From NCBI GenBank assembly GCA_017469935.1, contig JAFUFL010000066.1, positions 1 to 64,000 on the forward strand: DNA of 64,000 nt, in the 5' to 3' direction. Below the pieces are notes generated by a model. The model saw only the letters and a list, made by a program, of their open reading frames with translations. It was not told where the DNA came from and did not search any database. The position numbers and the translations under genes are program-made. The DNA comes from Lachnospiraceae bacterium. GTDB taxonomy: Bacteria > Bacillota > Clostridia > Lachnospirales > Lachnospiraceae. The number at the start of each line of letters is the position of its first letter. The stretch's first letter is position 1. Positions 1-60,209 of this stretch are shown here, piece by piece.

Positions 1-27
1 AGATATGCGTAAAATCCCACCTGTATT

Positions 28-106
28 CAAGGCTCGCTGAGCGAGCCGCCGCGCCGCGTGCGGGCTGCCCGAATGGCAGCATTTTCCTTTCCGCACGCGT
101 GTGCAT
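28..106 (-). repeat. Element A copy 1 (structured intergenic repeat)
   Basis: In the plus reading the order is hairpin GGCTCGC-TGA-GCGAGCC, then arm CGCGTGCGG, inner hairpin GCTGCC-CGAAT-GGCAGC, then closing arm CCGCACGCG and GTGTGCAT. The strand given is the transcript sense of the upstream gene. Members recur at 170, 4561, 24554, 32431, 58703 and 60131. Confidence 0.85.
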
Positions 107-169
107 AGAATAATGCAGTGGGGGATTTCACCCATCTCCCATAGAGATGCGTAAAATCCCACCTGTATT

Positions 170-248
170 CAAGGCTCGCTGAGCGAGCCGCCGCGCCGCG
201 TGCGGGCTGCCCGAATGGCAGCATTTTCCTTTCCGCACGCGTGTGCAT
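170..248 (-). repeat. Element A copy 2
   Basis: Identical in architecture to copy 1, lying 142 bp further on in the tandem block. The downstream 50-bp hairpin (258-307) belongs to the same compound unit. Confidence 0.85.
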
Positions 249-395
249 AGAATAATGCAGTGGGGGATTTCACACATCTCCCATAGAGATGGGTAAAATC
301 CCACCTGTATTATACGCTCTTATCGCTCCGGAATCCAGAAAAACGCGCATGCGCGGTTCCGGGCCGCAGTCCGGCAGGCCGCCGCACATAGCGAA

Positions 396-426
396 AGCCG
401 CGGAGCAGCTTGTCTGCTCCGCGGCT
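396..426 (-). terminator. Hairpin terminator of the NYN-domain gene
   Basis: A perfect 13-bp stem (396-408 with 414-426, core GCCGCGGAGCAG) and a 5-nt loop lie about 25 nt past the stop codon at 451 on the minus strand. Only a short T run (TTTCGC) follows, so termination strength is uncertain. Confidence 0.65.
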
Positions 427-450
427 CATACTGCCGGCCGATTTTCTTTT

Positions 451-2016
451 TTACATCTGGTTAAGTGCTTTTACATAAGGCTTGAGCATAAAATAATACC
501 TGCGGCCTTTTTCCTTGCCATAATGCTTGAGCAGCGCGTAGCGCAGCGAATTGAGATTCTTTCTCTTGTTCTCGGCACCGAGAAGGAAAGCGGCGAATTC
601 GCTGATATTCTCCTCGGTGAGCGCCTCTGCGGGCTCATCGCTGTGTCTGAAGATCAGGGCGCAGTAGTAAAGGAATTTTTCTTCCCTGTCCCAGTCCTTC
701 TTTTCGATACTCAGTGCGCCGGATTTGAGAGACAGATAGACGTCCTTGCCGTTATCCCCGTAGAACTGGATCAGCTGATTGTGCAGTTCGGCGAGGTTGT
801 CCATGCCGATGCAGTTGACGATCGCGGTGATCTCTTCCGGATCGGGGACAAACTCTTCACTCTCTTCGGTGATGTGTTTTTCCTCAGAAGCCTGCTCTTC
901 TTCCTTCTCCCGCGCCTGTCTCTTTGATCCTGCGGCTTTCTCACCGGACTCATCCGTCAGTCTGTCCGAAGCTTTTTTATCAGGCTCGCTCTCAGCTTCC
1001 CGGTCCTCTTCTTCTTCGGGCTCTTCGCCGGCTTCTGCGCCTTCGATCTTCCCGTAAGCAGCGTCAGGCTCATGATCCCCGGATTCGCTTTCCGGTTCCG
1101 CTTCCTCTTCCTCATGATCCGCGGAACTCTCATCGGAATCATCATCTTCGGAGTCGTCATCGGAATCATCGTCGTCAGACTCATCATCGTCGGAATCGTC
1201 ATCGTCGTCAGACTCATCATCGTCGGAATCGTCATCGTCGTCAGACTCATCATCGTCGGAATCGTCATCATCGGACTCATCGTCTTCGGAATCGTCATCG
1301 TCGTCAGACTCATCATCGGAATCGTCGTCGTCAGACTCATCATCGTCGGAATCGTCGTCGGTATCAGCGTCTTCGGAGTCATCGAGATCATCATCGGAAG
1401 CGAAGTCCTCATCAGAGGAAGCCTCTTCCTCGTCTTCTCCCGACTCATCGGCGAGATCGTCGTCATCTTCGTAATCGGGCTCCGGCTGCTCATGTGTATA
1501 CTCTGCGGATTCTTCCGCGCCGTGAGGCAGCGTTTCCTCTTCGGTATACACCTCTGCGCCGGCCGCGTCTGCTCCGGACATCTTCATTAATTTGTGAAGG
1601 ATCGCGCTCACTTCCGCCGCGACATCCGCTCTGGCAGGTGTCCCTCTTCTGCGGCTGCCGGTCCGGCTGTCCTTACCGGCAATCCTCTTTACGGAATACT
1701 CTTTTCGTCTCCAATACTTCACCGCCGCGTCGTATCCCGTATCATTGGTCACGATGATGAATTCGTCACCCGGATTATTTGCAATGAGAAAGCCCAGTTC
1801 CGTACAGAGCTGGAAATCAAGGGCATTTGTTCCCTCATAGCATTTAATAAAAGTGACTTTTCTGTCTGATTCCTTGAGCTTGATGAGACTGTCATAGCTC
1901 ATATGGGGGCTGTTCTTCGTATAAAAGACGATCAGCTTCGCCATGTCCGCCGGAAGATCCAGCAGCGGAATCCAGAAATCTCCGACATTTTCGCTGTCGA
2001 TCAAATAGTGTTTCAT
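451..2016 (-). CDS. PIN/NYN-like domain protein with long acidic Asp/Ser repeat
   Basis: A protein of 521 aa. I chose the ATG at 2016 because AGGAG precedes it; the longer frame to 2076 has no ribosome site. Residues 1-110 resemble a PIN/NYN ribonuclease fold: LIDSENVG at 5-12 carries D7, E9 and N10, and TNDTGYD at 90-96 carries D92 and D96, the usual spacing of acidic metal ligands. Residues 104-130 are Arg/Lys-rich. Residues 180-310 are an extreme Asp/Ser/Glu tract of repeats such as SDDDESDDDD, followed by a mixed-charge linker. Residues 388-521 form a compact, helix-rich C-terminal domain I do not recognise. Nuclease activity is inferred from the N-terminal motif only; the acidic tract could bind metal or basic proteins. 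The gene stands alone between the repeats and the dha promoter. Confidence 0.75.
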   Translation of the reverse strand: MKHYLIDSENVGDFWIPLLDLPADMAKLIVFYTKNSPHMSYDSLIKLKESDRKVTFIKCYEGTNALDFQLCTELGFLIANNPGDEFIIVTNDTGYDAAVKYWRRKEYSVKRIAGKDSRTGSRRRGTPARADVAAEVSAILHKLMKMSGADAAGAEVYTEEETLPHGAEESAEYTHEQPEPDYEDDDDLADESGEDEEEASSDEDFASDDDLDDSEDADTDDDSDDDESDDDDSDDESDDDDDSEDDESDDDDSDDDESDDDDDSDDDESDDDDDSDDDESDDDDSDDDSEDDDSDESSADHEEEEAEPESESGDHEPDAAYGKIEGAEAGEEPEEEEDREAESEPDKKASDRLTDESGEKAAGSKRQAREKEEEQASEEKHITEESEEFVPDPEEITAIVNCIGMDNLAELHNQLIQFYGDNGKDVYLSLKSGALSIEKKDWDREEKFLYYCALIFRHSDEPAEALTEENISEFAAFLLGAENKRKNLNSLRYALLKHYGKEKGRRYYFMLKPYVKALNQM

Positions 2017-2135
2017 ATAAGTCTCCTGATCGGTCGGCACGCATGCATTATAACCCGAATGAGGATCGACATGCAAGTATCCGCGAGGTCAACATGGGCC
2101 GCCGCACCGCAAAAATATGTCGCAAAAAAAACTGA

Positions 2136-2169
2136 CAGTATTCAACTTATTTGTGAATAGTGCTATAAT
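2136..2169 (+). promoter_or_regulatory. Promoter and palindromic operator upstream of dhaL
   Basis: A -35 TTCAAC (2141-2146) and -10 TATAAT (2164-2169) are separated by 17 bp. Overlapping them is an imperfect palindrome CAGTATTCA-N9-TGAATAGTG (2136-2162). A related palindrome precedes dhaK at 3344. Repressor or activator identity is not visible. Confidence 0.7.
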
Positions 2170-2263
2170 TTGTATGAAATACCGTTGGATTCATTGGGGT
2201 GGATCCTGCAGTGTTTTCCGGCCGCAAATGCGGCTCCTATAATGTATCGGGAGGTAACAGTTT

Positions 2264-2887
2264 ATGGCATCAAAGATTTATCAGTGTATCGAAACAATCG
2301 GCAACCGCATCATTGAGCAGAAGGAATTCCTTACCGAGCTCGACCGCGAGATCGGCGATGCGGACCACGGGATCAACATGGCCAGAGGTTTTACGGAAGT
2401 GCTGGCAGTTCTTCCCAAGGACAGCGACAATATCGGCGAAGTTCTCAAGAAGACAGGCATGACGCTCCTCTCCAAGGTCGGCGGCGCATCCGGCCCTCTT
2501 TACGGCACCGCTTACATGCAGGCAGGAAAGGTCCTTGCCGGCAAGACTTCCCTCTCTCCTGAGGACGGGAAGGCAGTCTTTGAAGCGGTGATCGCGGGCA
2601 TCCAGAAGCGCGGCAAGGCCGTCAAGGGCGAGAAGACCATGCTCGACGCCATCATCCCCGCTTACGAAGCCTACACGGCTGCCTTGGACGGCGGCGCTCC
2701 CGCAGGCGACGCGCTCGACGCCATGTGCAAGGCGGCGGAGGAAGGCGTGGAATTCACCAAGACGATCATCGCCACCAAGGGACGCGCCAGCTATCTGGGC
2801 GACCGCAGTATCGGTCATCAGGATCCCGGTGCCACTTCCGCCACTTATACGCTGGAGTGCATCCGTGATTTCGTAAAGAGTATTTGA
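2264..2887 (+). CDS. dhaL: Dihydroxyacetone kinase ADP-binding subunit DhaL
   Basis: A protein of 207 aa, the usual DhaL length. DhaL carries the nucleotide that is phosphorylated by DhaM and passes the phosphate to dihydroxyacetone bound on DhaK in the cytoplasm. The metal/nucleotide motif GDADHG is at residues 31-36 and the conserved GGASGPLYGT block is at about 73-82. SIGHQDPGA near residue 185 fits the family C-terminal lid. GGGAGGT sits 8 nt before the ATG. It is the first gene of the dha operon, 16 nt before dhaM, whereas the common order is dhaK-dhaL-dhaM. Confidence 0.95.
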   Translation: MASKIYQCIETIGNRIIEQKEFLTELDREIGDADHGINMARGFTEVLAVLPKDSDNIGEVLKKTGMTLLSKVGGASGPLYGTAYMQAGKVLAGKTSLSPEDGKAVFEAVIAGIQKRGKAVKGEKTMLDAIIPAYEAYTAALDGGAPAGDALDAMCKAAEEGVEFTKTIIATKGRASYLGDRSIGHQDPGATSATYTLECIRDFVKSI

Positions 2888-2903
2888 GTGAGGGTTTCGG
2901 ATC

Positions 2904-3293
2904 ATGGTAGGAATTGTTATCGTATCACACAGCGCGAAGGTCGCGGAAGGGATTTATGACCTTGTCATGCAGATGGCCTCTGAGAACGATCACATCATTC
3001 CCGCCGGCGGGCTCGAAGACGGTTCTATCGGAACTGACGCTTTCAAGATCCAGGAGGCGATCGAGAGTGCGGACACCGGTGACGGCGTCGCCGTACTTGC
3101 CGATCTGGGAAGCGGAATCATGAGCGCCGAGATGGCCATCGAGATGCTGGACGAAGACATAGTCGTGCGCATCGCCGACGCCCCAATACTTGAGGGCGCG
3201 GTCAGCGCGGCCGTCACATCTACGTCAGGCGCTTCTCTCGACGAAGTGATCGAGGCGGCCGAGGAAGCGAGGACGGCTTCCAAGCTCAGCTGA
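2904..3293 (+). CDS. dhaM: PTS-dependent dihydroxyacetone kinase phosphotransferase DhaM
   Basis: A protein of 129 aa corresponding to the mannose-type EIIA domain alone, as is normal for Gram-positive DhaM; the HPr and EI-like domains of the enterobacterial protein are absent. The phospho-acceptor is His9 in IVSHS. The segment DLGSGIMSAEMAIEML (about 68-83) is the conserved EIIA-man-type helix. The protein receives phosphate from HPr and rephosphorylates ADP on DhaL. It lies between dhaL and dhaK, and a 127-bp gap with a second palindrome separates it from dhaK. Confidence 0.93.
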   Translation: MVGIVIVSHSAKVAEGIYDLVMQMASENDHIIPAGGLEDGSIGTDAFKIQEAIESADTGDGVAVLADLGSGIMSAEMAIEMLDEDIVVRIADAPILEGAVSAAVTSTSGASLDEVIEAAEEARTASKLS

Positions 3294-3343
3294 CATCCGC
3301 TCTCTCGCGACAGTGTCGTAAAGGGGTCAAAACAGTGCATTTG

Positions 3344-3382
3344 CAGTATTCAATTGTGGGGAATTGATACTGACGGCATAAA
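3344..3382 (+). promoter_or_regulatory. Second dha palindrome and possible internal promoter before dhaK
   Basis: CAGTATTCAAT-N7-ATTGATACTG (3344-3372, one bulged T) shares the CAGTATTCAA half-site with the palindrome before dhaL. A weak promoter TTGTGG-17-CATAAA (3354-3382) overlaps it. This could allow separate control of dhaK. Confidence 0.45.
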
Positions 3383-3420
3383 TGCGGAAACCAAACACTA
3401 TTTTCACAGGAGGTATCCAA

Positions 3421-4419
<999 letters not shown>

Positions 4420-4484
4420 TCGCACTATTCCTTTTGTACGCAGCGCGGCCGCGCAGGCCGCTCCGCCGATCAATAAGTAAAACA

Positions 4485-4515
4485 ATGAGGCCGGCAACTT
4501 GTTTGCCGGCCTCAT
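4485..4515 (+). terminator. Hairpin after dhaK
   Basis: A 13-bp perfect stem ATGAGGCCGGCAA (4485-4497) with its complement (4503-4515) and a 5-nt loop lies 66 nt after the dhaK stop. There is no T tract, so it may terminate weakly or protect the 3' end. Confidence 0.55.
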
Positions 4516-4530
4516 CTGTGATATATAACT

Positions 4531-4639
4531 CAGAGGGGATGTCCCCCGCTGAAGTTTATGATGCACACGCGCGCGAAAAGAAAGGCGCCTTCTAAAGGGC
4601 AGCCCGCACGCGGTGCAGCGGCTCGCTCTGCGGGCCTTG
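4531..4639 (+). repeat. Element A copy 3, with leading GGGGGA hairpin
   Basis: A leading hairpin CAGAGGGGATGTCCCCCGCTG-type stem (4531-4551) precedes ATGCACACGCG at 4561. The rest follows in the opposite orientation to the other copies on the plus strand, but in the same sense as the upstream gene dhaK. Outer-stem changes here keep pairing through G-U wobbles. It lies between dhaK and the PAP2 gene. Confidence 0.8.
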
Positions 4640-4682
4640 TCCCCTTGTACTTATCATCAATGCATAAATGGAAGAATTGACT

Positions 4683-5645
4683 ATGGACTTACAATACCTG
4701 CTTTTACTCCAGCAGCTCAGAAACTCTGCCGGCAGCTGGCTTACAACACTGATGATGTCCGTTTCCCATATGGCGATGGTCGGGTGCCTTGTCATATGCG
4801 TCGTGACCTACTGGGGAATCAACAGGCAGCTCGGATACTGGCTCGTCTCCAACTGTATCAGCAGCCTGTTTTTTAACAACCTGATCAAACTGACCGTCTG
4901 CGTCTACAGGCCATGGATCCTGTATCCGCAGCTGCAGCCGTACCCGGGTGCCATAGAGAGCGCTACCGGTTATTCCTTCCCAAGCGGCCATACCCAGACC
5001 GCGGCCTCGTTTTACGGTTCCATCGCGGCCCGATACGGAAAAGAAAAAAAAGGACTGACCGCGTTTTGTGTCGCGGCAATCCTCCTGACGGCATTTTCCA
5101 GAAACTTTCTGGGCGTCCACACACCTCAGGACGTTCTGTTCGCGATCGCGATCTCAGCCGTCCTTGTGTACTTCAATACCCGTCTCTTCGAAGGGATTGA
5201 CAGGGATCCGTCCTTTCTGACGAAATTCATCCTGGTCGGCTGCGCCGCCTCCGTGCTGTGCATTCTCTATTTTGCCCTGAAATCCTATCCGATGGACTAT
5301 GTGAACGGCGTGCCCATCGTCGATCCCGCCAAGATGAAGAATGACGGATACATGATCGCAGGCGCCTGTATCGGCATCCTGACAGGCACTTACCTCGAAG
5401 TGCACTATGTAAAGTTTGAGACGGACGGCACCGTTCTGCAGAGGATCCTTCGCATAGCACTGGGCATTCCCGTTATCGCCCTGTTCCTGCGGGGGGTCAA
5501 GAATGCCATTTATGCCCTGATCGGCCCTGCGGGGGGACATGTAGTCGTCTATGCCCTGATGAGTTTTTACATTATCTTTGTCTATCCCGCGCTCTTTTCG
5601 GCGGTAGAGAGGCGCCTGAAGGCGCGCCGCGCCAAAGAGCAATAA
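4683..5645 (+). CDS. PAP2-superfamily membrane phosphatase
   Basis: A protein of 320 aa. The ATG at 4683 has GGAAG 8 nt upstream, better than the ATG at 4668. The phosphatase signature is complete: KLTVCVYRP matches K-x6-RP, FPSGHTQ matches PSGH, and SRNFLGVHTPQD matches SR-x5-H-x3-D. Several hydrophobic segments indicate an integral membrane enzyme with an extra C-terminal membrane region. Family members dephosphorylate lipid phosphates such as undecaprenyl pyrophosphate, phosphatidylglycerol phosphate or phosphatidic acid; the substrate cannot be told from sequence. It stands alone on the plus strand, its stop abutting the convergent DUF2752 gene with no spacer, so the two genes end back to back. 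Confidence 0.9.
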   Translation: MDLQYLLLLQQLRNSAGSWLTTLMMSVSHMAMVGCLVICVVTYWGINRQLGYWLVSNCISSLFFNNLIKLTVCVYRPWILYPQLQPYPGAIESATGYSFPSGHTQTAASFYGSIAARYGKEKKGLTAFCVAAILLTAFSRNFLGVHTPQDVLFAIAISAVLVYFNTRLFEGIDRDPSFLTKFILVGCAASVLCILYFALKSYPMDYVNGVPIVDPAKMKNDGYMIAGACIGILTGTYLEVHYVKFETDGTVLQRILRIALGIPVIALFLRGVKNAIYALIGPAGGHVVVYALMSFYIIFVYPALFSAVERRLKARRAKEQ

Positions 5646-6059
5646 TCAGATCAGGTTTCTCACAATACCGAATATGACAAGGCCGACGCAGTATACAATT
5701 GCGGCGGCCTCAAATTTTGCGCCCGTCTTTTCATTTCTGGCCCATTTATACGCATAGTACAGAAGCAGGAACAGCAGATAAGGGAGCGTGATAAACAAAA
5801 AAGCGTTCGCATGCAGTGCCGCCTTAAAGTCCGCTTCGCAGATCGCTCTGATCATTCTGGTGATGCCGCAGCCCGGGCAGTCAAGACCGGTAGCTTCGTG
5901 AAAAAAGCAAGGCACCGATATCCCCCCTGCCCGGATCCAGATAAGATACGCGATGCCCGCAAGCAAAATAAGCAGCAGGAAACTGAGTTTCCTGCCGCTG
6001 TATCCGTTCTTGTATTCTCTGTTTGTACTCGAAATATTATTCTCCGAAATCATACTCAC
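5646..6059 (-). CDS. DUF2752 membrane protein
   Basis: A protein of 137 aa with three hydrophobic segments (about 25-45, 90-108 and 118-136). The signature GLDCPGCGITR (about 58-68) is that of DUF2752, a family of small membrane proteins of unknown function. The start is a GTG at 6059 whose bases overlap the TGA of the upstream gene (GTGA), which suggests translational coupling; an ATG at 6053 is the alternative. It is the last gene of a three-gene set with a DUF4234 protein and a cytidylate kinase-like protein. Confidence 0.85.
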   Translation of the reverse strand: MSMISENNISSTNREYKNGYSGRKLSFLLLILLAGIAYLIWIRAGGISVPCFFHEATGLDCPGCGITRMIRAICEADFKAALHANAFLFITLPYLLFLLLYYAYKWARNEKTGAKFEAAAIVYCVGLVIFGIVRNLI

Positions 6060-6724
6060 TGAAGGGCTTTATTGATTGTATCCTGCATCAGGCAGAGAGC
6101 GATCAGTCCCAGTCCGAAGAGTCCGAGAATGAGAAAGAGCACATTGCTCGAACCGTTCTTCTGAGAGATATAATCACATTTCTCTCCCATCTTGTAATAC
6201 CAGTACCATGAGTAAATGCCGCAGGTTACGATATTCAGAAGGATGACCATTCCGCCGCCCGTCGCCATGGGATCCTGCGCCAGTTCGTTGATCTCGTTGT
6301 TAAGCGTGTAGATCCAGTAAATGACATAAATACCGCAGGTTACGATCGACAGGATGATCGCGATCGGAATGCTTCTGGGCTGGATATTTGTGTAGATAAT
6401 CTCCGGGCCGCCGTTCTCACCGCCGTTGGGAGCGCCGTTCCGATAGCCGCCGGCGTTCTGATAGCCGCCGCCGTTCCGGTAACCGCCGCCGTTCTGATAA
6501 CCGCCGCCGTTCTGGTAGCCGCCTCCGTTCTGGTAGCCGCCTCCGTTCCTGCCGCGTCCGTCGGAATTGGGATCGTAGGGGTAAGCGCCGCCTCTCGGAA
6601 GCGCGCCGTTATTCTGATTCTGCATTGCGCCTTCCGGCTGCGGTGCGGTAAAAGGTAATCCGCACTCGACACAAAACTTGCTTCCGTCCGCATTCGCAGC
6701 TCCACATCTGCCGCATTTTTTCAT
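6056..6724 (-). CDS. Zinc-ribbon / DUF4234 membrane protein with GGGYQN repeats
   Basis: A protein of 222 aa from the ATG at 6724, which has AAGGAGG upstream. The N-terminus is a zinc ribbon with C4-x2-C7 and C18-x2-C21. Residues about 55-100 are a low-complexity run of GGGYQN/GGGYRN hexapeptides (18-bp DNA repeats at 6430-6545). The C-terminal part (about 118-222) has the paired ITCGIY/VTCGIYSWYW membrane segments typical of DUF4234. The function is unknown. It starts 4 nt after the cytidylate kinase-like gene and overlaps the DUF2752 gene, so the three are co-expressed. Confidence 0.85.
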   Translation of the reverse strand: MKKCGRCGAANADGSKFCVECGLPFTAPQPEGAMQNQNNGALPRGGAYPYDPNSDGRGRNGGGYQNGGGYQNGGGYQNGGGYRNGGGYQNAGGYRNGAPNGGENGGPEIIYTNIQPRSIPIAIILSIVTCGIYVIYWIYTLNNEINELAQDPMATGGGMVILLNIVTCGIYSWYWYYKMGEKCDYISQKNGSSNVLFLILGLFGLGLIALCLMQDTINKALQ

Positions 6725-6728
6725 GTAA

Positions 6729-7328
6729 TTAAACCTCCTTGTATGCCTCTGCAAACTTCTTAATATATTCAGCCGTTCCTGCAATACCAAGACGGCTTGA
6801 ATTGACAATCAGGTCATAAGCTCTGGAATCGCCCCACTTTGTTTCACTGTAAAAGTTGTGGTAAGTGCGGCGGAACTTATCCGTTTCCCTGCGCTCCTGG
6901 TCGGCTTCCTCGAGCGTGGTCTGCTGGATACCCGCCAGCCTCCTGTTCTTCTCCTCCGCGTCGCCGACTACAAAAACGCGGATCAGATTGGGATTTCCCT
7001 TAAGTACGGAATCCGCACAGCGCCCGACGATCACACAGCTCTCTCCGCTGTCCGCGATCTGTCTGATATACTCAAACGTTTTCCTCGCCACATTGCTCTC
7101 GGGCGATTCCTCGAATCCGCCGATCCTTCCCGCAAAAGGAAATCCCGCCGGCTTTTCGTCCAATTTCTTTATATAATTTCTGTTCATGCCGCTGAGCTTC
7201 GCGGTGCCTTCGACAAGTCTCTTCTTATCATAGCAGGCGATGCCCATCGCATCCGCGACTCTCTTGGCGATCGCATGTCCGCCGCTTCCCGACTCTCTTC
7301 CAATCGTTATGATGATCTGTTCTTTCAT
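6729..7328 (-). CDS. Cytidylate kinase-like family protein
   Basis: A protein of about 199 aa. The start is placed at the ATG at 7328, behind GGGGGAC; five residues could be added upstream. The N-terminus IIITIGRESGSGGHAIAKR is a P-loop of the cytidylate kinase-like (AAK6) group. The central VIVGRCADSVL and the downstream Arg-rich DQERRETDKFRRTY segment resemble the lid of this group. These proteins are distinct from Cmk and their substrate is not known. It is the first gene of the set with the zinc-ribbon DUF4234 and DUF2752 proteins. Confidence 0.85.
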   Translation of the reverse strand: MKEQIIITIGRESGSGGHAIAKRVADAMGIACYDKKRLVEGTAKLSGMNRNYIKKLDEKPAGFPFAGRIGGFEESPESNVARKTFEYIRQIADSGESCVIVGRCADSVLKGNPNLIRVFVVGDAEEKNRRLAGIQQTTLEEADQERRETDKFRRTYHNFYSETKWGDSRAYDLIVNSSRLGIAGTAEYIKKFAEAYKEV

Positions 7329-7401
7329 AGTGCTGTCCCCCATTTTTTCTTACATGGGACCGGATGCTGCCGCATCCGGGTCGTTTCTGCCTTCTGTCAG
7401 T

Positions 7402-7430
7402 ATTATAGCAGACTTCCAATGATTAATCAT
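7402..7430 (-). promoter_or_regulatory. Candidate promoter and palindrome for the cytidylate kinase-like operon
   Basis: A minus-strand -10 TATAAT (7402-7407) lies about 75 nt before the start codon. A perfect 12-bp palindrome ATGATTAATCAT (7419-7430) occupies the place of the -35 element and may be an operator. No good -35 hexamer is visible. Confidence 0.45.
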
Positions 7431-7453
7431 CATTTCTGAAAAAGATCCGGTCT

Positions 7454-12898: not shown

Positions 12899-12920
12899 CC
12901 TTTTCCGCACACGTGTGCAT
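12899..12920 (-). repeat. Truncated element A remnant
   Basis: Only the TTCCGCACACGTGTGCAT end of element A is recognisable. It lies 62 nt past the stop of the SpoU gene, in the usual orientation. Confidence 0.5.
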
Positions 12921-24493: not shown

Positions 24494-24553
24494 AATATCA
24501 TTCAAATAAAGAGAACCTCCCGACCACAGCAGGCCGGAAGGTGTCTTTTTAAT

Positions 24554-24632
24554 CAAGGCTCGCCCTGCGAGCCGCCGCGCCGCGTGCGGGCTGTCCCTCG
24601 GACAGCTCCTTCCTTTCCGCACGCGTGTGCAT
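24554..24632 (-). repeat. Element A copy 4
   Basis: Begins 2 nt after the stop of the metallo-hydrolase gene. The inner hairpin is GCTGTCC-CTC-GGACAGC; compared with copy 1 a C-G pair has become T-A, a compensatory change. There is no GGGGGA hairpin before it. Confidence 0.85.
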
Positions 24633-24634
24633 CT

Positions 24635-29288: not shown

Positions 29289-29620
29289 CCCCTACGAAAT
29301 CAAGAATTCTTCCATCTCGTAGGTTACCCCTAGTCTGGCACTTACCAGAGAGCCCTACGAAATGAAGAAAGCAGTCTGTTCGCAGGTCTGCCCAGCCGGC
29401 ACGCGGCAGGCATTTGCCTGAGAGCCCCCTACGAAATGAAGAAAGCAGCCTGTTCGCAGGTACTCCCAGCCGGCCCTCAGCCTGGTACTTGCTAAAGAGA
29501 GCCCTACGAAATGGGAAAAGAACCCTGTTCGTAGGTCACTTCGAGCCGGCACTTGCTAAAGACACCCCTACGGAATGAAAAAAGCTTGCTGGTCGTCGGT
29601 TCCCCTGGCCAGAAACAAAC
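29289..29620. repeat. Array of five CCTACGAA hairpin units
   Basis: Units begin at about 29289, 29353, 29427, 29502 and 29565 (spacing 64, 74, 75, 63). Each starts CCCTACGAAAT, is A/G-rich for about 15 nt, then closes with TTCGYAGG, pairing CCTACGAA with TTCGTAGG. A conserved CCAGCCGGCAC and GCTAAAGAGAGC follow in most. The fourth unit pairs perfectly over 8 bp; units 2 and 3 share 20 or more identical bases. The last unit is diverged. Confidence 0.85.
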
Positions 29621-32403: not shown

Positions 32404-32430
32404 TTTAAACTGTTCCTCCAAAGGTTTAAT

Positions 32431-32541
32431 CAAAGCTCGCAGGGCGAGCCGCTGCGCCGCGTGCGAGCTGCCCGAAAGGCAGCCTCTTCCTTTTCGCACG
32501 CGTGTGCATCGAATAACACAGCGGGGGGATTATCCCCCCTG
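32431..32541 (-). repeat. Element A copy 5 with leading GGGGGGA hairpin
   Basis: Lies between glyS and alaS. The hairpin CAGCGGGGGGATTATCCCCC (32519-32541 including the closing CTG) precedes the core (32431-32509). The outer stem reads CGCGTGCGA/TCGCACGCG where other copies have CGCGTGCGG/CCGCACGCG: a G-C pair replaced by A-T, a compensatory double change. Confidence 0.85.
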
Positions 32542-32546
32542 TGTCA

Positions 32547-33935
32547 TTAAAATTCGAACTTATCCGCAAACCACGCATCCAGCTCTGCGATCGGGACGCG
32601 CACCTGCTCCATGCTGTCTCTCATGCGGATGGTGACAGACTTGTCGGTCTCGGAATCAAAGTCATAAGTGACGCAGAAAGGAGTTCCGATCTCGTCCTGT
32701 CTTCTGTATCTCTTGCCGATGTTGCCTCTGTCGTCGTACTCGCAGTTGAACTTTTTGCTCAGATTTCTGTAGACTTCGAAAGCCTGGTCGCCCAGCTTCT
32801 TGGACAGAGGAAGCACGCCGACCTTGACGGGTGCCAGCGCGGGATGGAATCTCATGACGGTTCTCTTGTCGCCGCCCTCGAGCTCCTCTTCGTCATAAGC
32901 TGCACACAGGAAAGCAAGGGTCACGCGGTCTGCGCCCAGAGAAGGCTCGACAACGTAAGGGATGTATTTGGTCTTCTTGACATCGTCAAAGTAGCTCATA
33001 TCCTCGCCGGATACGTTCTGGTGCTGCGTCAGGTCATAGTCGGTTCTGTCCGCGATGCCCCACAGCTCGCCCCATCCGAAGGGGAACAGGAACTCGATGT
33101 CGGTCGTAGCCTTGGAATAGAAAGAGAGCTCTTCCTTGTCGTGGTCTCTCATTCTGGTCTCCTCGGGCTTGAGGCCCAGCTTCATGAGCCAGTTCCAGCA
33201 GAAATCTTTCCAATAGGCGAACCACTCGAGATCGGTGTCGGGCTCACAGAAGAACTCCATCTCCATCTGCTCGAACTCACGGGTTCTGAACGTGAAGTTG
33301 CCGGGTGTGATCTCGTTGCGGAAGGACTTGCCGATCTGGCAGATTCCGAAAGGAACTTTCTTTCTGGAAGTTCTCTGTACGTTCTTGAAGTTTACGAAGA
33401 TACCCTGCGCGGTCTCGGGTCTGAGATAGACCGTGGAAGCGCTGCTCTCCGTGACGCCCTGGAAGGTCTTGAACATCAGGTTGAACTGACGGATGTCCGT
33501 CCAGTGGAACTTGCCGCAGCTGGGGCAGGGAACGGCGAACTTGTTGATGAAGCCCATCATCTCGTCGCTGGTCCAGCCGACGACGCTGCCGTCCAGAGTC
33601 ATCTCGTGCTCTGCCGCGTAGTCCTCGATCAGCTTGTCGGCGCGGAATCTCTCGCCGCAGGCCTTGCAGTCCATGAGCGGATCGGAAAAGCTTGCCAGGT
33701 GTCCGCTGGCCACCCATGTCTGGGGGTTCATCAGGATCGCGCAGTCAACGCCTACGTTCTCAGGGCTCTCCTGTACAAATTTCTGCCACCAGGCCTTCTT
33801 GACGTTGTTCTTGAGTTCGACGCCCAGATTGCCGTAGTCCCATGTGTTGGCCAGTCCGCCGTAGATCTGGGAACCGGGGTAAATGAATCCTCTGGCATTA
33901 CACAGTGCCACGATCTTATCCATTGTCTTTTCCAT
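32547..33935 (-). CDS. glyS: Glycyl-tRNA synthetase, dimeric (alpha2) type
   Basis: A protein of 462 aa. The ATG at 33935 gives the usual N-terminus [17 protein letters not shown], with AAGGAG upstream. This is the single-chain class II GlyRS found in Gram-positives and eukaryotes, not the alpha2beta2 form. [12 protein letters not shown] and CPSCGKFHW supply zinc-type cysteines, [14 protein letters not shown] is the conserved catalytic block, and [14 protein letters not shown] is motif 3. It charges tRNA-Gly. It has its own promoter after recO and is followed by element A and alaS. Confidence 0.96.
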
Positions 33936-53146: not shown

Positions 53147-53157
53147 GAGGAAGGCAC

Positions 53158-54462
53158 ATGGGATCCACTTTAATCGAAAAAATATTTGCTCATAATATCG
53201 GTGCCGACTCCGTAAAAGCCGGCGATATCATTACCGTGAATGTCGACCGCGTGATGATCCACGATATTTTCATTCCTTTTGTAAAAGACAAGTTCGAGGA
53301 GATGGGATTTACAAAGATCTGGGATCCGGACAAGACGGTCCTGATCTACGACCACCTGGTACCGGCCAGCCAGCTGGATGATCCCCGCCATCACCACATC
53401 GGCGACGAGTTCTGCGACAAGTACGGGGTCAAAAACGTGCATCGCTCCGACGGCATCTGCCATCAGCTCATGACGGAGGCCGGCTATGTGAAGCCCGGCG
53501 ATGTGGCCTTCGGCACGGACTCCCACACCGTCACCTACGGCTGCGTGGGCGCCTTCTCCACCGGAATCGGCTACACGGAGATGGCCAGCATTCTGGGCAC
53601 CGGCAAGCTCTGGGTGCGCGTCCCCGAGACCATCCGCGTCAACATCGAGGGAGAGCTTCCTGAGGGCGTCACGTCCAAGGACATCATCCTGACCATTATC
53701 GGCGACCTCCGGGCAGACGGCGCCACCTACAAGTCCCTGGAATTTGCGGGCAGCACCGTGGACGCCATGTCTGTGGCGAGCCGCATGACCATGTCCAACA
53801 TGACCGTTGAGTGCGGCGCCAAGTGCGGCCTCTTCTCTCCGGATGAAAAGACGGCGCAGTACTGCGGCCTGGACGGCCTGGACGATTTCCTCACGACCCT
53901 TCACGGCGACGAGGACGCCAACTATGCACAGGTACTGAATTACAGGGCGGAAGATTTTGCCCCCGTAATGGCCTGCCCGTCTCAGGTCGACAAAATCAAG
54001 CCAGTCTCCCAGGTCATCGCGGAAGCTGCTTCCCTGGAAGAAGGAAGCGTTGTTCCCGGTGTCGGTCTCATCGAAGGAGGTTCCGTCCGCGTAGACCAGG
54101 TCTTCATCGGCTCCTGCACCAACGGGCGCCTCGAGGACCTGCAGGCAGCAGCCGCTGTCCTGAAGGGCAGACAGATTGCTCCTTTTGTCAAGCTGATCGT
54201 CACGCCTGCCAGCCGCAAGATCTACAGAGAAGCTCTCGCTGACGGCACGCTGGACATCCTCGCCGAGGCGGGCGCCATGATCACCACGCCCGGCTGCGGC
54301 CTCTGCTGCGGCAGAACCGGCGGCATCCTGACCGACAACGAAGTCGTGGTCGCCACCAACAACCGCAACTTCCTCGGCCGCATGGGCACCTCCAAGGTCA
54401 ATATTTACCTGGCTTCGCCCATTACTGCTGCCAGGTGTGCGTTGGCAGGAAGAATAGTATAA
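53158..54462 (+). CDS. leuC: Aconitase-family large subunit (pair 2, LeuC-like)
   Basis: A protein of 434 aa. Cluster ligands lie in GSCTNGRLEDL and TTPGCGLCCGRTGG; the latter differs from the NPNCSVCWGS of pair 1. GTDSHTVTYGCVGAFSTG and YDHLVPAS are conserved. AGGAGGAAG precedes the ATG. It is the last gene of the leu run and meets ilvC tail to tail over a strong terminator. Either the second isopropylmalate isomerase or a related hydro-lyase such as methylmalate or dimethylmalate dehydratase. Confidence 0.87.
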   Translation: MGSTLIEKIFAHNIGADSVKAGDIITVNVDRVMIHDIFIPFVKDKFEEMGFTKIWDPDKTVLIYDHLVPASQLDDPRHHHIGDEFCDKYGVKNVHRSDGICHQLMTEAGYVKPGDVAFGTDSHTVTYGCVGAFSTGIGYTEMASILGTGKLWVRVPETIRVNIEGELPEGVTSKDIILTIIGDLRADGATYKSLEFAGSTVDAMSVASRMTMSNMTVECGAKCGLFSPDEKTAQYCGLDGLDDFLTTLHGDEDANYAQVLNYRAEDFAPVMACPSQVDKIKPVSQVIAEAASLEEGSVVPGVGLIEGGSVRVDQVFIGSCTNGRLEDLQAAAAVLKGRQIAPFVKLIVTPASRKIYREALADGTLDILAEAGAMITTPGCGLCCGRTGGILTDNEVVVATNNRNFLGRMGTSKVNIYLASPITAARCALAGRIV

Positions 54463-54498
54463 CTCGGGAGGTTGTGACACACCACCCACATCTCAATC

Positions 54499-54533
54499 AA
54501 AAAAAGCAGAGGCCTCTCGACCTCTGCTTTTTT
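54499..54533. terminator. Bidirectional terminator between leuC 2 and ilvC
   Basis: AAAAAGCAGAGG (54501-54512), loop CCTCTCGA, CCTCTGCTTTTTT. Works for both converging operons. Confidence 0.93.
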
Positions 54534-54549
54534 ATATTTGTGTGTTGCG

Positions 54550-54601
54550 CTGACACATTTTTTTCGAAAAAATGTGTCAGTAGATACGTCCCCGTGACAC
54601 A
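54550..54601. repeat. Palindrome with GTGACACA boxes (element D)
   Basis: CTGACACATTTTTT-TCG-AAAAAATGTGTCAG (54550-54580), 14-bp stem, followed by a GTGACACA box (54594-54601). A second GTGACACA lies at 54474-54481, on the other side of the terminator. Resembles REP-like intergenic palindromes. Confidence 0.65.
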
Positions 54602-54603
54602 AA

Positions 54604-55740
<1,137 letters not shown>

Positions 55741-56262
55741 TCAGACCAGCTTGTCGAGATAAATAACGTTCTTGGTACCTCTTCCAAGGCCTGCGACGCC
55801 GGTTCTGGCCAGTTCCAGAATCTCATAGCCGCTGACAAGTTTCAGGAACGCGTCCACCTTGCCGGAGTTGCCGGTAATCTCGATCATCAGGCTCTCGTTG
55901 GAAACATCGATGATATTGCCCCTGAAAATATTGGTGAGAGCGATCACGTTCTCTCTCTGGTCCGCGTTTGCCCTGACCTTGATCATGGCCAGCTCGCGGA
56001 AAACGCTCTCATCCGGCTTAAGTTCATGGATATCCCGGACATCCACAAGCTTCATGACCTGCTTCTCGATCTGCTCCATGATGTCGTTGTCGCCGGAAGT
56101 CACCACCGTGATCCTCGTGATCGTGGGCTCTGCGGTGACGCCCGCCGTAATGCTCTCGATGTTATATCCTCTTCTGGAGAACAGTCCGGCAATGCGGCTC
56201 AGTACGCCGGAATTATTGTCGGCGAGAATCTGGAACACCTTTATGTTGTTCGCTTCACTCAT
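55741..56262 (-). CDS. ilvN: Acetolactate synthase regulatory subunit (second copy)
   Basis: A protein of 173 aa from the ATG at 56262 (AAGGGAA upstream). The N-terminal ACT domain reads FQILADNNSGVLSRIAGLFSR with GYNIESITAGVT, and a C-terminal extension as in IlvH/IlvN follows. It binds valine and controls the catalytic IlvB. It has its own promoter at 56341-56369, separate from the ilvB-ilvN transcript. Confidence 0.93.
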   Translation of the reverse strand: MSEANNIKVFQILADNNSGVLSRIAGLFSRRGYNIESITAGVTAEPTITRITVVTSGDNDIMEQIEKQVMKLVDVRDIHELKPDESVFRELAMIKVRANADQRENVIALTNIFRGNIIDVSNESLMIEITGNSGKVDAFLKLVSGYEILELARTGVAGLGRGTKNVIYLDKLV

Positions 56263-56340
56263 TTCATCTTTTCCCTTCATTTGATGAATTCATTTCATTC
56301 ATCCGATGAATATTTTTAATGTTTTTGCCAAATTGCAACT

Positions 56341-56369
56341 ATTATAACGCTCCGCCAGTGTCAAGTCAA
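56341..56369 (-). promoter_or_regulatory. Promoter of the second ilvN and ilvC
   Basis: TTGACT (56364-56369), 17 bp, TATAAT (56341-56346). Downstream, ATTCATC-C-GATGAAT (56297-56311) is a near-perfect palindrome that may be an operator. Confidence 0.75.
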
Positions 56370-56389
56370 ACCCAAATAGACGCAGACTG

Positions 56390-56878
56390 TTATTTGCCCT
56401 GCTCGCTGCACTTGAGAAGGGCCAGAGTGCCGGTCCTCGCGATCTCGATGATGCTGACCGTGCGCAGCGTGTCCAGAAAGATCTGGACCCTCTCGGGCGT
56501 GTCGCACATCTGGATGGTCATCATAGTCTTGGACATATCCACTATTTTGGCCCCCATGATATCGCAGTTCTCCATGATATCCTTGCGGTTCGTGCGGTTG
56601 TAGCGCACCTTCACGAGCATGAGTTCGCGGTTGATGCTCTCCGTCTCGTCGAAAGTCTTGACCTTGATCACATCGAGCTTCTTGTTGAGCTGCTTCTCGA
56701 TCTGCTCGAGAGTCCTGCGGTCTCCGCTGGAGACGATCACCATATTGGAGACGTTCTTGTCCTCGGTCTCTCCCACGGCAAGGGAGTCGATATTAAAGCA
56801 TCTGCGCCAGAACAGCCCCGCGACCTTACACAGCACACCGGACCGGTTCTCGACCAGAACAGAATAAATTCTCTTCAT
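56390..56878 (-). CDS. ilvN: Acetolactate synthase regulatory subunit (first copy)
   Basis: A protein of 162 aa. The ACT domain reads YSVLVENRSGVLCKVAGLFW with CFNIDSLAVGETED, and the C-terminal half ends in IIEIARTGTLALLK. It differs at many positions from the second copy, so the two are old paralogs rather than a recent duplication. It follows ilvB after 81 nt. Confidence 0.93.
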   Translation of the reverse strand: MKRIYSVLVENRSGVLCKVAGLFWRRCFNIDSLAVGETEDKNVSNMVIVSSGDRRTLEQIEKQLNKKLDVIKVKTFDETESINRELMLVKVRYNRTNRKDIMENCDIMGAKIVDMSKTMMTIQMCDTPERVQIFLDTLRTVSIIEIARTGTLALLKCSEQGK

Positions 56879-56959
56879 AACTGATTCCTCTTTCTGTTAT
56901 CCGCCAAAAAATCGCATGATCCACGCCTGCTTTGCACCAAAACAGAGCACAGCGCCGGA

Positions 56960-58624
56960 TCAGACCACCAGCTTCGGGTCGATGATCACTTCAAGGAGTG
57001 TCGACTCGTCATCGGAAAGGAACTTCTCGATTCCGCTGTCCATGTCTTCCACGGCCGCGATCTGCTGGTAGCGGATCCCGTAAGCTTCCGCGAGCTTTCT
57101 GAAATCCGGGATCGAGTCTCCCAGGTCGATGACCGAATAGCGGTCCTGATAGGTAAAATGCTGATACTGGCGGACCAGTCCCAGAACGTTGTTGCGAAGC
57201 ACGACGATCTTGACCGGCACGTTGTACTGCTTCATGGTGGCAAGTTCCATCATGGTCATCTGGAAGCCGCCGTCTCCGCATACCGCCACGACCTGGCGGT
57301 CGGGCGCTCCGAGCTTGGCGCCCAGCGCGGCCGGGACCGAATAGCCCATGGTTCCCATTCCGCCGCTCGTCAGGAACCGGCTGTTCTCCTTGATCACACA
57401 GTTGGCGCAGGACCACAGCTGGTTCTGGCCGACGTCCGCGACGTAAATCGCGTCGTCCTTCATGGCTCTGGACAGGCGCTTGATGAAGATCTCCGGATTG
57501 ACCATGAGCGCGTTGATCTCCTGCTCCGTAAGCGTGGAGGAGTACATGTGGCGCTTCCTTCTGGATGCGTTCTGTGTGTCATCCTTGTAGCCGTCCAGCT
57601 TGTCGATCCAGAGCGAATAGTCCGCGTTGATCTCCGCTTTGTTGAACTCCATGAAGACATGCGCGATATCGCCTACCAGAGGAATTGTGGGGCCCGCGTT
57701 CTTGCCGATCTCTGCCGGATCGACGTCAATATGGACCAGGACTTTATTCTCCGTGATCAGATCGGGCTGGCTGATCGTGCGGTCCGCGACGCGCGCGCCC
57801 ACCATGATGATCATATCCGAATCATTCATGGCTCTGTTTCCGTACGCCTGCCCGTTATTTCCGACCATTCCGTAGAAAAGGAAGTGGTTGGTGGGAAGCA
57901 CGCCAAGTCCCATCATGGTGCACACGACCGGAATGTCGTTGTTCTCGACAAATGTGCGCACCTGCTGCTTCGCGCCCTTGCTCAGGTGCACGCCGCCGCC
58001 GACGCAGATGATCGGCCTTTTGGCCTTCTGCAGTTCCTTGATCACTTTTTTGATCTGAACGGCGTGGCCGGTGACAGTGGGCTTGTAAGTGCGGATGCTG
58101 ACCGTCTCGGGGTAGGAAAACTTGCGGATCTCCGCCTTCTGAATATCGATCGGGATATCGATCAGGACAGGGCCTTTTCGTCCTGTGCCGGCGATATGGA
58201 AGGCTTCCTTAATGATCCTCGGAATATCCGAGGCCTTGCGCACGATATAGCTGAACTTGACGAAGGATTCGCAGGCGCCGGACACGTCGACCTCCTGGAA
58301 CACATCGCTTCCCATCAGGGACGAGTCCACCTGTCCCGTGATGCAGACGAGCGGAATGCTGTCCGCAAAGGCCGTGGCGATTCCCGTGATCAGGTTCGTC
58401 GCGCCGGGGCCGCTGGTAGCAACAGCGACGCCCACTTTCCCGGTGATCCTGGCATATCCGCTGGCCTCATGAGCCGCGTTCTGCTCCTGCCTGACAAGGA
58501 TCGTCTTGATATTCGTGTCAAGAATACTGTTGAAAAAAGGACAGATCGCCACTCCGGGATACCCGAAGACGTATTCGACTCCCTCGAGTTCGAGACATTT
58601 CACAATTGCATCTGCTGCTATCAT
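56960..58624 (-). CDS. ilvB: Acetolactate synthase catalytic subunit
   Basis: A protein of 554 aa. The catalytic Glu47 is in VRQEQNAAHEASGYAR. SGPGATNLITGIATA follows, and the thiamine diphosphate site GDGGFQMTMMEL with the downstream Asn lies near 430-460. The enzyme joins two pyruvates or pyruvate plus 2-ketobutyrate at the start of branched-chain amino acid synthesis. TCGGGAGGATGATAG carries its ribosome site. It lies after tyrS, an element A copy and a hairpin. Confidence 0.95.
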   Translation of the reverse strand: MIAADAIVKCLELEGVEYVFGYPGVAICPFFNSILDTNIKTILVRQEQNAAHEASGYARITGKVGVAVATSGPGATNLITGIATAFADSIPLVCITGQVDSSLMGSDVFQEVDVSGACESFVKFSYIVRKASDIPRIIKEAFHIAGTGRKGPVLIDIPIDIQKAEIRKFSYPETVSIRTYKPTVTGHAVQIKKVIKELQKAKRPIICVGGGVHLSKGAKQQVRTFVENNDIPVVCTMMGLGVLPTNHFLFYGMVGNNGQAYGNRAMNDSDMIIMVGARVADRTISQPDLITENKVLVHIDVDPAEIGKNAGPTIPLVGDIAHVFMEFNKAEINADYSLWIDKLDGYKDDTQNASRRKRHMYSSTLTEQEINALMVNPEIFIKRLSRAMKDDAIYVADVGQNQLWSCANCVIKENSRFLTSGGMGTMGYSVPAALGAKLGAPDRQVVAVCGDGGFQMTMMELATMKQYNVPVKIVVLRNNVLGLVRQYQHFTYQDRYSVIDLGDSIPDFRKLAEAYGIRYQQIAAVEDMDSGIEKFLSDDESTLLEVIIDPKLVV

Positions 58625-58661
58625 CTATCATCCTCCCGATGCCTGTTTCACATCGCACAAA

Positions 58662-58685
58662 TGCCTGCAGCCTGCGCTGCAGGCA
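58662..58685 (-). promoter_or_regulatory. Hairpin upstream of ilvB
   Basis: TGCCTGCAG-CCTGCG-CTGCAGGCA, perfect 9-bp arms, about 40 nt before the ilvB start. On the minus strand TTTGTG follows. A partial terminator or attenuator between tyrS and ilvB; no leader peptide or T-box is visible. Confidence 0.5.
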
Positions 58686-58702
58686 CTGTATTATTTTCCA
58701 TG

Positions 58703-58771
58703 GTTGGCTGAGTGAGCCGCTGCGCCGCGCGCGGGCCGCCGTAAGGCAGCTTTCTGCTCGTCGCGCACATA
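58703..58771 (-). repeat. Element A copy 7, degenerate
   Basis: Begins 9 nt after the tyrS stop in the usual orientation. GGCT/AGCC replaces the long first stem and GCGCG/CGCGC the outer stem, so the overall fold is kept while sequence has drifted. Confidence 0.65.
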
Positions 58772-58780
58772 TACTCCGTT

Positions 58781-60022
58781 TCAGCTCTTCACCAGTTTGA
58801 AGCTCTTCTTTCCTCTCTTGACGAGCTTTCCGTCTTTGAGCTCATCCTTTGTAAAGACCGCCTTGAAATCCTGGACCTTTTCGCCGTCCACGGTTACGCC
58901 GCCCTGAATGACATCGCGGCGCGCATCGCCTCTGGACTTCTCAAGGCCGGCTTTTACGAGGATGGTCAAAATATCGACTTCCCCGTTCTCACTAAAATCC
59001 TCCGCCGCGAGAACTGCGGTGGGGACGTTGTCCATGCTGCCGGGCGTAGCCGCGCTGAACAGCGCTTCCGCGCCCGCCTTGGCCTTTGCCGCCTCATCGC
59101 TGCCGTGTACCAGTGTGGTCAGCTCCTGCGCCAGGATCTCCTTGGCCGTGTTGAGCTGCGCGCCCTCCCACTTGTCCATCTCGTCGATCTGCTCGAGGGG
59201 AAGGAAAGTCATCATGCGCAGGCACTTTAGAACGTCTGCGTCGCCGATATTTCTCCAGTACTGATAGAAATCGTAAGGAGAAGTTTTGTCGGGATCCAGC
59301 CAGACGGCGCCCTTCGCTGTTTTGCCCATCTTCTTTCCTTCCGAGTTGAGAAGGAGCGTGATGGTCATGGCGTAGGCGTCCTTGCCCAGCTTCTTGCGGA
59401 TCAGCTCGGTGCCGGCCAGCATGTTGCTCCACTGGTCATCGCCGCCGAACTGCATGTTGCAGCCGTAGGTCTTGTACAGGTTATAGAAGTCGAAGGCCTG
59501 CATGACCATGTAGTTGAACTCGAGGAAGCTAAGGCCTCTCTCCAGTCTCTGCTCGTAGCATCTTGCGCGGAGCATCTCGTTTACACTGAAATGAGAGCCG
59601 ATATCTCTCAGGAACTCGATGTAGTTGAGGTCCCTGAGCCAGTCCGCGTTGTTGACCATCATGGCCTTGCCCTCGCCGAACTCGATGAAGCGGCTCATCT
59701 GTTTCTTGAAGCATTCACAGTTGTGGTCGATCTGCTCGACGGTCATCATGGAGCGAAGATCCGTGCGGCCGGAAGGGTCGCCGATCATGCCTGTGCCGCC
59801 GCCTACGAGTGCCACGGGCTTGTTGCCTGCTTCCTGCAGTCTCTTCATGAGAAGCAGGGCCATGAAGTGGCCGACGTGCAGGGAATCCGCAGTGGGATCA
59901 AAGCCGATGTAGAAAGTGGCTTTGCCGGCGTTGATCAGGTCTCTGATCTCGTCGGGATCCGTAAGCTGGGCCAGAAGGCCTCTTGCCTGCAGTTCCTCGT
60001 AGATTTTCATGTTCTTTTCCAT
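58781..60022 (-). CDS. tyrS: Tyrosyl-tRNA synthetase
   Basis: A protein of 413 aa. GFDPTADSLHVGHFMALL (HVGH at 49-52) is the HIGH motif, KMGKTAKGAVWL the KMSKS-type loop, and a C-terminal S4 RNA-binding domain (SRGDARRDVIQGGVTVDGEK) recognises tRNA-Tyr. AGGAG lies 10 nt before the ATG. It is the bacterial TyrRS. A promoter immediately next to element A copy 6 may drive it. Confidence 0.96.
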   Translation of the reverse strand: MEKNMKIYEELQARGLLAQLTDPDEIRDLINAGKATFYIGFDPTADSLHVGHFMALLLMKRLQEAGNKPVALVGGGTGMIGDPSGRTDLRSMMTVEQIDHNCECFKKQMSRFIEFGEGKAMMVNNADWLRDLNYIEFLRDIGSHFSVNEMLRARCYEQRLERGLSFLEFNYMVMQAFDFYNLYKTYGCNMQFGGDDQWSNMLAGTELIRKKLGKDAYAMTITLLLNSEGKKMGKTAKGAVWLDPDKTSPYDFYQYWRNIGDADVLKCLRMMTFLPLEQIDEMDKWEGAQLNTAKEILAQELTTLVHGSDEAAKAKAGAEALFSAATPGSMDNVPTAVLAAEDFSENGEVDILTILVKAGLEKSRGDARRDVIQGGVTVDGEKVQDFKAVFTKDELKDGKLVKRGKKSFKLVKS

Positions 60023-60104
60023 TTCTTCTTGTCTCCTGTCTGATATATATTAGCAACCAGCGCCCTAATCCCCCAGACGCATGGAGGCCGCCCGGTGCTG
60101 ATAT

Positions 60105-60133
60105 GTATTACTTTCAATATGGTAATTGTTCAA
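60105..60133 (-). promoter_or_regulatory. Candidate promoter of tyrS
   Basis: TTGAAC (60128-60133), 17 bp, TAATAC (60105-60110). The -35 starts in the last bases (CCTTGA) of element A copy 6. Confidence 0.6.
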
Positions 60134-60209
60134 GGCTCGCAGAGCGAGCCGCCGCGCCGCGTGCGGGCTGTCCGATGGACAGCATCTTCCTTACCACACG
60201 CGTGTGCAT
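60131..60209 (-). repeat. Element A copy 6
   Basis: Begins 9 nt after the plsY stop. The inner hairpin is GCTGTCC-GAT-GGACAGC, sharing with copy 4 the T-A pair that replaces C-G in copy 1. The closing arm reads CCACACGCG, one mismatch to the opposite arm. Confidence 0.83.

Follow-up and report, generated by a model that had tools for sequence, protein, structure and literature searches.

The window analysed here is a stretch of 64,000 nt from a Lachnospiraceae bacterium (positions 1 to 64,000 of contig JAFUFL010000066.1, assembly GCA_017469935.1), and its subject is a dispersed structured repeat, element A, which a first-pass annotation had placed at 28, 170, 4561, 24554, 32431, 58703 and 60131, with a remnant at 12899. 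The repeat is real: seven of these eight copies score with a covariance model, at 64 to 103 bits, and nothing further appears in the window up to an E value of 1. The supposed remnant at 12899 gives no model match, and the orthologous site in the close relative UBA4260 (G043) is similar and carries no repeat. Read in its sense direction, element A consists of a left pentamer, the hairpin P1 (CWCAG..CTGWG), a 5-base guide, [T/C]GATGCACA, the hairpin P2, GCGCAGC, the hairpin P3 and a right end that is usually TTGAA (32 of 59 tails). P2 is a stem CGCGTGCGG/CCGCACGCG around AAAGGAAGAT plus an inner GCTGCC/GGCAGC hairpin, and P3 is GGCTCGCnnnGCGAGCC. A hairpin thus lies near each end, P3 on the right and, in the copies that bear it, P1 on the left; many copies have no P1. 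The complete element is about 110-170 bp long, and the length between the P1 arms ranges from about 10 to 73 nt. The GGGGGA..TCCCCC hairpin, described by the annotation as an addition in front of three loci, is part of the element and identical with P1. Script-based detection recovers it in 28 of the 71 copies scoring at least 50 bits and misses others that are visible by eye.

The window starts inside a tandem array of the element on the minus strand (1-307). The first 142-bp unit has its core, P2 and P3, at 24..108 (102.8 bits) and its P1 hairpin, with the stem CAGGTGGGATTTTAC..GTGAAATCCCCCACTG, at 116..165; the second, 99% identical, has its core at 166..250 (102.8 bits) and its P1 at 258..307. 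Contig C72 of the same genome begins with the same P3 sequence (C72:36-57), and the array may be the cause of the contig break. The single plus-strand copy has its core at 4559..4643 (85.4 bits), 139 nt after a Dak1 gene, so that the dhaK assignment is borne out; its P1 hairpin (CTCAG..CTGAAG) occupies 4529..4554 and a putative target pentamer, TATAA, 4524..4528. On the minus strand, a core without P1 lies directly after a stop codon at 24550..24634 (93.1 bits), and another at 32427..32511 (98.8 bits) is accompanied by a P1 hairpin (CACAG..CTGTG) at 32517..32543 and by the left-flank pentamer AATGA at 32544..32548, which overlaps the TAA stop of the upstream gene. The last two are a degenerate copy at 58695..58778 (64.1 bits), 2 nt after the tyrosyl-tRNA synthetase gene, and a core without P1 at 60127..60211 (97.2 bits), 7 nt after the glycerol-3-phosphate acyltransferase gene.

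A covariance model search of this genome and its relatives, which the annotation had proposed, extends the family well beyond the window. In the window genome (G000; 3.55 Mb in 111 contigs, the window lying on contig C87) the model built from the window copies finds at least 108 matches, a lower bound as 150 of 1074 first-look candidates were scored; UBA4260 has 61 of its own, and any match is found in 11 of 41 genomes of the genus. The structure in this first model was out of register and these matches rest on sequence conservation; because the model worked on sequence alone, the pair counts given below are independent of them. With a corrected model and strict filters, related elements appear in at least 31 of 299 genomes of the family, and the named relatives that carry the repeat are metagenome-assembled genomes of the rumen Lachnospiraceae type. 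A near-identical element of about 140 nt occurs in four genera (genomes G164, G072, G200 and G352) and a similar one in two more (G309 and G217), with ends of the AACTCAG..GAGTTAAA type and CTTGA in most members of this branch. Between the guide and GGATGCRCAC, many of the elements from other genera (loci L342-L427) also carry a segment like CGCTCCGCGA or CCTCCGGGG, which the window family does not have. Head-to-tail arrays are seen at window 28/170, at C32:37589/37667 and in genome G308. Phage or plasmid cargo was dropped as an explanation: two element patterns had no exact match in viral contigs, and one element had no match in plasmid or phage records.

The comparison with UBA4260 shows turnover of the copies. 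The two sequences are collinear across the window; identity is 95-97% in the first query region and mostly 82-97% over the window as a whole. Among 38 G000 copies for which both flanks could be placed in the examined half of UBA4260 (classed by eye, without the tandem rows C105 and C32:37589/37667), 19 are missing from the relative, 15 occur there in one form or another and 4 are ambiguous. In the window, the copies at 4561, 32431, 58703 and 60131 are absent, the last from a site that is empty, and the copy at 24554 is present with an internal deletion; those at 28 and 170, at the contig edge, lie outside the comparison. Shared copies include C50:19804, conserved together with its flanks, and three that have decayed on one side between the relatives (C94:132188, C50:75998 and C11:53277). 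Hairpins have been deleted between orthologues at C47:6330, where UBA4260 is without exactly P1, between TTAA repeats, at C11:53277 and at window 24554. There is no sign of strong selection after insertion. The annotation's second reading, a mobile element with a targeting bias, gains support from the empty sites in a close relative, from the near-identical elements in four genera and from the pairing of the left flank with the element described below.

Seven G000 copies consist of the 3' part only, P3 with TTGAA or similar: C20:1081, C92:2319, C24:91008, C110:12493, C35:49159, C8:10643 and C47:17650 (loci L132, L136, L127, L076, L326, L340 and L338, respectively). Their truncated 5' ends fall at most a few bases from the stop codon of the gene upstream, TAG and TGA included, and either a hairpin deletion after insertion or a truncated insertion would account for them; the UBA4260 site is empty for C110:12493. 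The loose P3 scan for truncated copies returned many chance rows, and no count was drawn from it.

The five bases to the left of CWCAG tend to complement the five to the right of CTGWG. This was analyzed in 43 P1-bearing copies from G000, UBA4260 and a few relatives, with about four rows that look mis-parsed (the second row of L029, L049, L070 and L110) kept in the set. Left flank and guide are exact complements in 23 of the 43, where 20,000 permutations average 6.9 and never exceed 16, and 182 of 215 positions are complementary, against a permutation mean of 143.8. The pairs vary between copies: TATAA with TTATA, AATAA with TTATT, TTTAA with TTAAA, TTTAT with ATAAA and ATGAA with TTCAT. If the left bases were part of the element, this complementarity would be plain stem covariation. 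At three loci, however, the exact pentamer is found in the aligned empty site of UBA4260 (TATAA at C58:4047 and C94:49965, TTGAA at C50:2395), and at C94:37913 the empty allele of another relative, G024, has AATAA as the stop of the gene. Target pairing at insertion is likely, but not proven. A true target duplication, considered because some left and right pentamers are alike, was not upheld, as left TATAA, ATGAA or TTTAT occurs with right TTGAA or TTAAA.

Exactly abutting the stop codon of an upstream sense gene are 17 of the 43 P1 copies (one row doubtful), where the background is 249 stops among 5039 noncoding TAAs, and landing on TAA stop codons would place copies behind genes in sense orientation. 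In further elements of other genera the P1 arms have a T-rich left and an A-rich right base; of 24 copies of this kind, 14 begin in a T-tract that immediately follows a terminator-like hairpin, compared with 8.3% in shuffles and 11 of 166 other T5+ runs in the same loci. The 24 copies include several per genome; at least L401, L425 and L426 are mis-parsed and, by eye, also lie behind a terminator hairpin, but were not counted as such.

Genes were called with a home-made caller, and the context count for G000 covers 89 of the 108 matches, the remainder being mostly the weakest. Of these, 55 lie between tandem genes in sense and 5 in antisense, 13 are divergent, 9 convergent and 7 have one side uncalled; the upstream gene is in sense in 69 of the 88 copies for which one was called. 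The corresponding numbers for 21 copies in UBA4260 are 14, 1, 3, 1 and 2. The annotation's statement that all copies lie 2-200 nt after a stop codon in sense is too strong: antisense, divergent and convergent copies exist and the window copy at 28 is 342 nt away. In UBA4260, 18 of 21 copies follow the majority gene strand of their own 20-kb stretch, and the sense bias does not exceed the proportion of genes on the leading strand (mean 0.88 across 45 stretches), so that insertion relative to the leading strand and relative to gene sense are not separable in these data.

The fold is shared and maintained. Five of six window copies fold better than their shuffles (z from -2.5 to -3.9), the exception being the degenerate copy at 58703 (z -0.29). 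When 100 distinct copies of the core, taken from G000, UBA4260 and a few relatives, are aligned to the corrected structure, 95.6% of cells are paired, and changes on both sides of a pair are seen at 10 pairs in 32 cells, compared with 4.1 pairs and 6.9 +/- 2.3 cells in shuffles. The covariation among element copies is real, and the compensatory changes that the annotation had named are present in the sequence. Covariation, which the annotation read as pointing to a function at the RNA level, is predicted too by hairpins in DNA whose mobility depends on folding.

The likeliest account, which we find somewhat more probable than not, makes element A a non-autonomous mobile hairpin of DNA in rumen Lachnospiraceae, inserting 3' of a guide-paired pentamer, rather than a regulatory RNA. 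In this reading the element would fold as single-stranded DNA. Insertion would take place immediately 3' of a short pentamer with which the guide, adjoining P1 on its 3' side, pairs, and the target would thereby extend the first hairpin. In this genus the targets would be NNTAA-like pentamers, often the TAA stop codon of a gene; in related genera A-rich guides would direct insertion to T-tracts behind terminator hairpins. Both kinds of target lie behind genes on the coding strand, which would leave copies downstream of genes and in their sense. The enzyme that moves the element would act in trans and could be HUH/Y1-like or of another kind. Insertion of later copies into the right end of earlier ones would also account for the head-to-tail arrays.

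Several observations weigh against this reading. Of the 11 comparable P1 copies (one seen from one side only), only 3 have the exact pentamer in the UBA4260 empty site. The site differs at C11:28469 (GACAA), C24:32384 (AATAC), C94:40922 (TGTGA), C94:37913 (AAGTG), C35:53744 (CCTGA, one flank only) and C42:12851 (TATAT), while the pentamer of window copy 4559 is shifted by two bases and that of 32427 is unclear. A single base separates several of the differing sites from the pentamer, and at C11, C24, C94:40922 and C35 the occupied allele fits its own guide better than the empty allele does, as if insertion had either chosen or altered the pentamer; part of it may arrive with the insertion or be altered by it. 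Many copies have no P1 and hence no guide, and 5'-truncated copies are also found at stop codons, some of them TAG. The excess at stop codons is larger than specificity for TAA alone predicts. The opposite strand folds better in 60 of 70 G000 copies, with more G-U pairs (118 of 1865, versus 55 of 1827), a surplus that we suspect comes from one conserved A-C beside P2. Finally, a Y1_Tnp match was found in 6 of 10 carrier genomes and not in the other 4, which include G072 (86% complete, at least 15 copies) and G341 (eight copies), and these Y1-negative carriers weigh against a simple Y1 story.

A rival explanation, in line with the first of the annotation's two readings, is a structured RNA at mRNA 3' ends or between cistrons, acting in stability, attenuation or as a processed small RNA, with the sense orientation kept by selection. 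The 55:5 sense bias in tandem contexts, the significant covariation and the conservation across genera of unpaired motifs (GATGCRCAC, AGGAARATG and GGCGC) all fit such an RNA, but the way in which pairs break weighs against it. One-sided deviations in the 100-copy set give 56 G-T against 63 A-C (76 against 63 with the outermost pair included), whereas 24 distinct tRNA genes give 42 and 0; this control is generous, because ARAGORN itself favours paired stems. As a share of standard pairs, G-T makes up 8.0% in tRNA genes versus 2.4% in the element. Likewise, in 27 related elements of other genera, whose fold is the same but whose stems are very different, G-U accounts for 20 of 737 pairs (2.7%), compared with 15 of 99 in the transfer-messenger RNA (tmRNA) of the window. 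Comparing sense with antisense G-U is uninformative, because the tmRNA has them equally on both strands (16 of 104 on the opposite one), as do the elements. All in all, the stems have the appearance of DNA hairpins in which Watson-Crick pairing is kept. Also against an RNA, 19 of the 38 comparable sites are absent in the close relative, and shared copies decay or lose arms. Rfam 15 finds only the tmRNA in the window. With thresholds relaxed, two sets of element loci, 20 and 4 in number, gave no match over the element that reaches a family threshold, only weaker ones. Among these is Clostridiales-1 RNA, rejected because its 41-bit opposite-strand overlap at L352 and a 33-bit match beside the element at L349 are below the threshold of 48, the true match in L352, at 83 bits, lying elsewhere. 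An intrinsic terminator was also rejected for the window family, in which only 4 of 59 tails have a T run (at least 4 T in the first 6), though many elements of other genera have T-rich sequence after P3. Taking wobble balance, turnover and decay together, we regard a regulatory RNA as improbable.

If the element is mobile DNA, it could still be an ordinary IS200/IS605-derived miniature inverted-repeat transposable element (MITE) of the PATE-like kind, moved by a Y1 transposase without any special guide, its left pentamer being simply part of a longer P1 stem. We consider this unlikely, though it accommodates the hairpins near both ends, the usual right end TTGAA, the lack of a clear target duplication and the difference between pentamer and UBA4260 site in most comparable copies. 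Against it, the pentamer is exact in three empty sites, the T-tracts follow host terminator hairpins, 4 of 10 carriers gave no Y1 match, and no Y1 gene with the ends of element A was found at 23 loci. At these 23 loci no element adjoins the gene, apart from one chance-level match at L001 (16 bits, E 0.31). The six Y1 matches in G000 itself comprise two long RAYT-like genes with palindromes of their own, two IS605-like genes and two fragments, and a RAYT or IS605 partner in this genome was rejected because, with the same chance-level exception, none lies beside an element. A classic DDE-type MITE was rejected as well: the ends CWCAG and TTGAA are not mutual inverted repeats, and left and right pentamers mostly differ. 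Another route of mobility, for example RNA-mediated target-primed reverse transcription with the 5'-truncated copies as incomplete cDNAs, would fit variable 5' truncation with a constant 3' end, truncated copies at stop codons, the empty site for the truncated copy C110:12493 and the sense orientation. The target pairing also recalls the exon-intron pairing of group II introns. Against it, hairpin deletions are seen between orthologues, the stems are without RNA-type wobble and no group II intron match was found in 20 element loci; such a route seems to us quite improbable.

The two RAYT-like genes of G000 (G000:C42:31142-31474 and G000:C61:13599-13931) have open frames of 334 and 291 aa and are flanked by different short palindromic repeats, ACCTCTGGGGTACC and CCCCAAAGGTCGAGTCA. 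They perhaps represent a separate, more typical REP/RAYT system, REP standing for repetitive extragenic palindrome.

Among known systems the closest resemblance is to the IS200/IS605 family. IS608 picks its target TTAC through a guide that is situated 5' of the left hairpin and pairs with it (PMC5934647). The target's 5' end comes close to the base of this hairpin on the 3' side, and the same paper engineered longer targets by adding complementarity between bases there and the 5' side of the target. Element A shares the hairpins near both ends and would share insertion 3' of a short left-flank sequence and a choice of target that depends on DNA pairing, but its pairing bases lie 3' of the first hairpin, where the natural IS608 guide lies 5'. 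Element A looks like a natural use of the 3' side of an IS608-type hairpin. It differs further in that no tnpA gene with its ends was found at the 23 Y1 loci. REPs, too, are of high copy number, intergenic and mostly near gene 3' ends (PMC3733652); according to that paper, G-T pairing is often seen in them and their termini can supply TAG stop codons. Element A has no GTAG/CGTC tag, three hairpins instead of one, a length of about 110-170 bp, no RAYT linkage and little G-T pairing. Integron attC sites are folded single-strand sites that often overlap the upstream stop codon, with AAC/GTT at the stem base and a variable apical part. The likeness of element A to them lies in the stop codon and the putative folded single strand; the differences are that it is dispersed without cassette arrays, that P1 stands at the 5' end of the inserted unit and that most copies, judged by eye, misfit the RYYYAAC/GTTRRRY boxes. 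We know of no guide-target pairing in the pneumococcal BOX and RUP or enterobacterial RU/ERIC-type repeats. These are likewise short, non-coding and intergenic (PMC3049150, PMC2759123). Their anatomy differs from that of element A. We found no description of element A in the open-access literature searched or in Rfam at threshold, which is not proof that it is undescribed.

Two other repetitive features lie in the window. At 29347-29620 lies a different repeat with CCTACGAAATGAAGAAAGCA..CTGTTCGCAGGT, a tandem row of four units that are each about 61-75 nt long and 64-85% alike, and a PIN-domain gene on the minus strand (451-2016) contains a long low-complexity stretch at 1103-1420 made of TCATCGTCGG-type repeats.

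Taken together, the elements in this and other genera may form a large superfamily of Lachnospiraceae mobile DNA, which we propose tentatively. Its members would choose targets by DNA-DNA pairing through a guide on the 3' side of the first hairpin, which would make them nature's counterpart to the pairing engineered into IS608. Guide and target would drift together, and lineages would have been re-aimed at differing safe positions behind genes, one branch at stop codons and another at terminator T-tracts. For the analysis of such repeats in general, covariation among copies does not prove a role at the RNA level, and comparing how often pairs break to G-T and to A-C can help to tell DNA hairpins from RNA hairpins. 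If our reading is true, tiny elements without genes of their own would have a natural, re-programmable choice of target by DNA base pairing, and no host function would be needed to account for such repeats lying downstream of genes in their sense.

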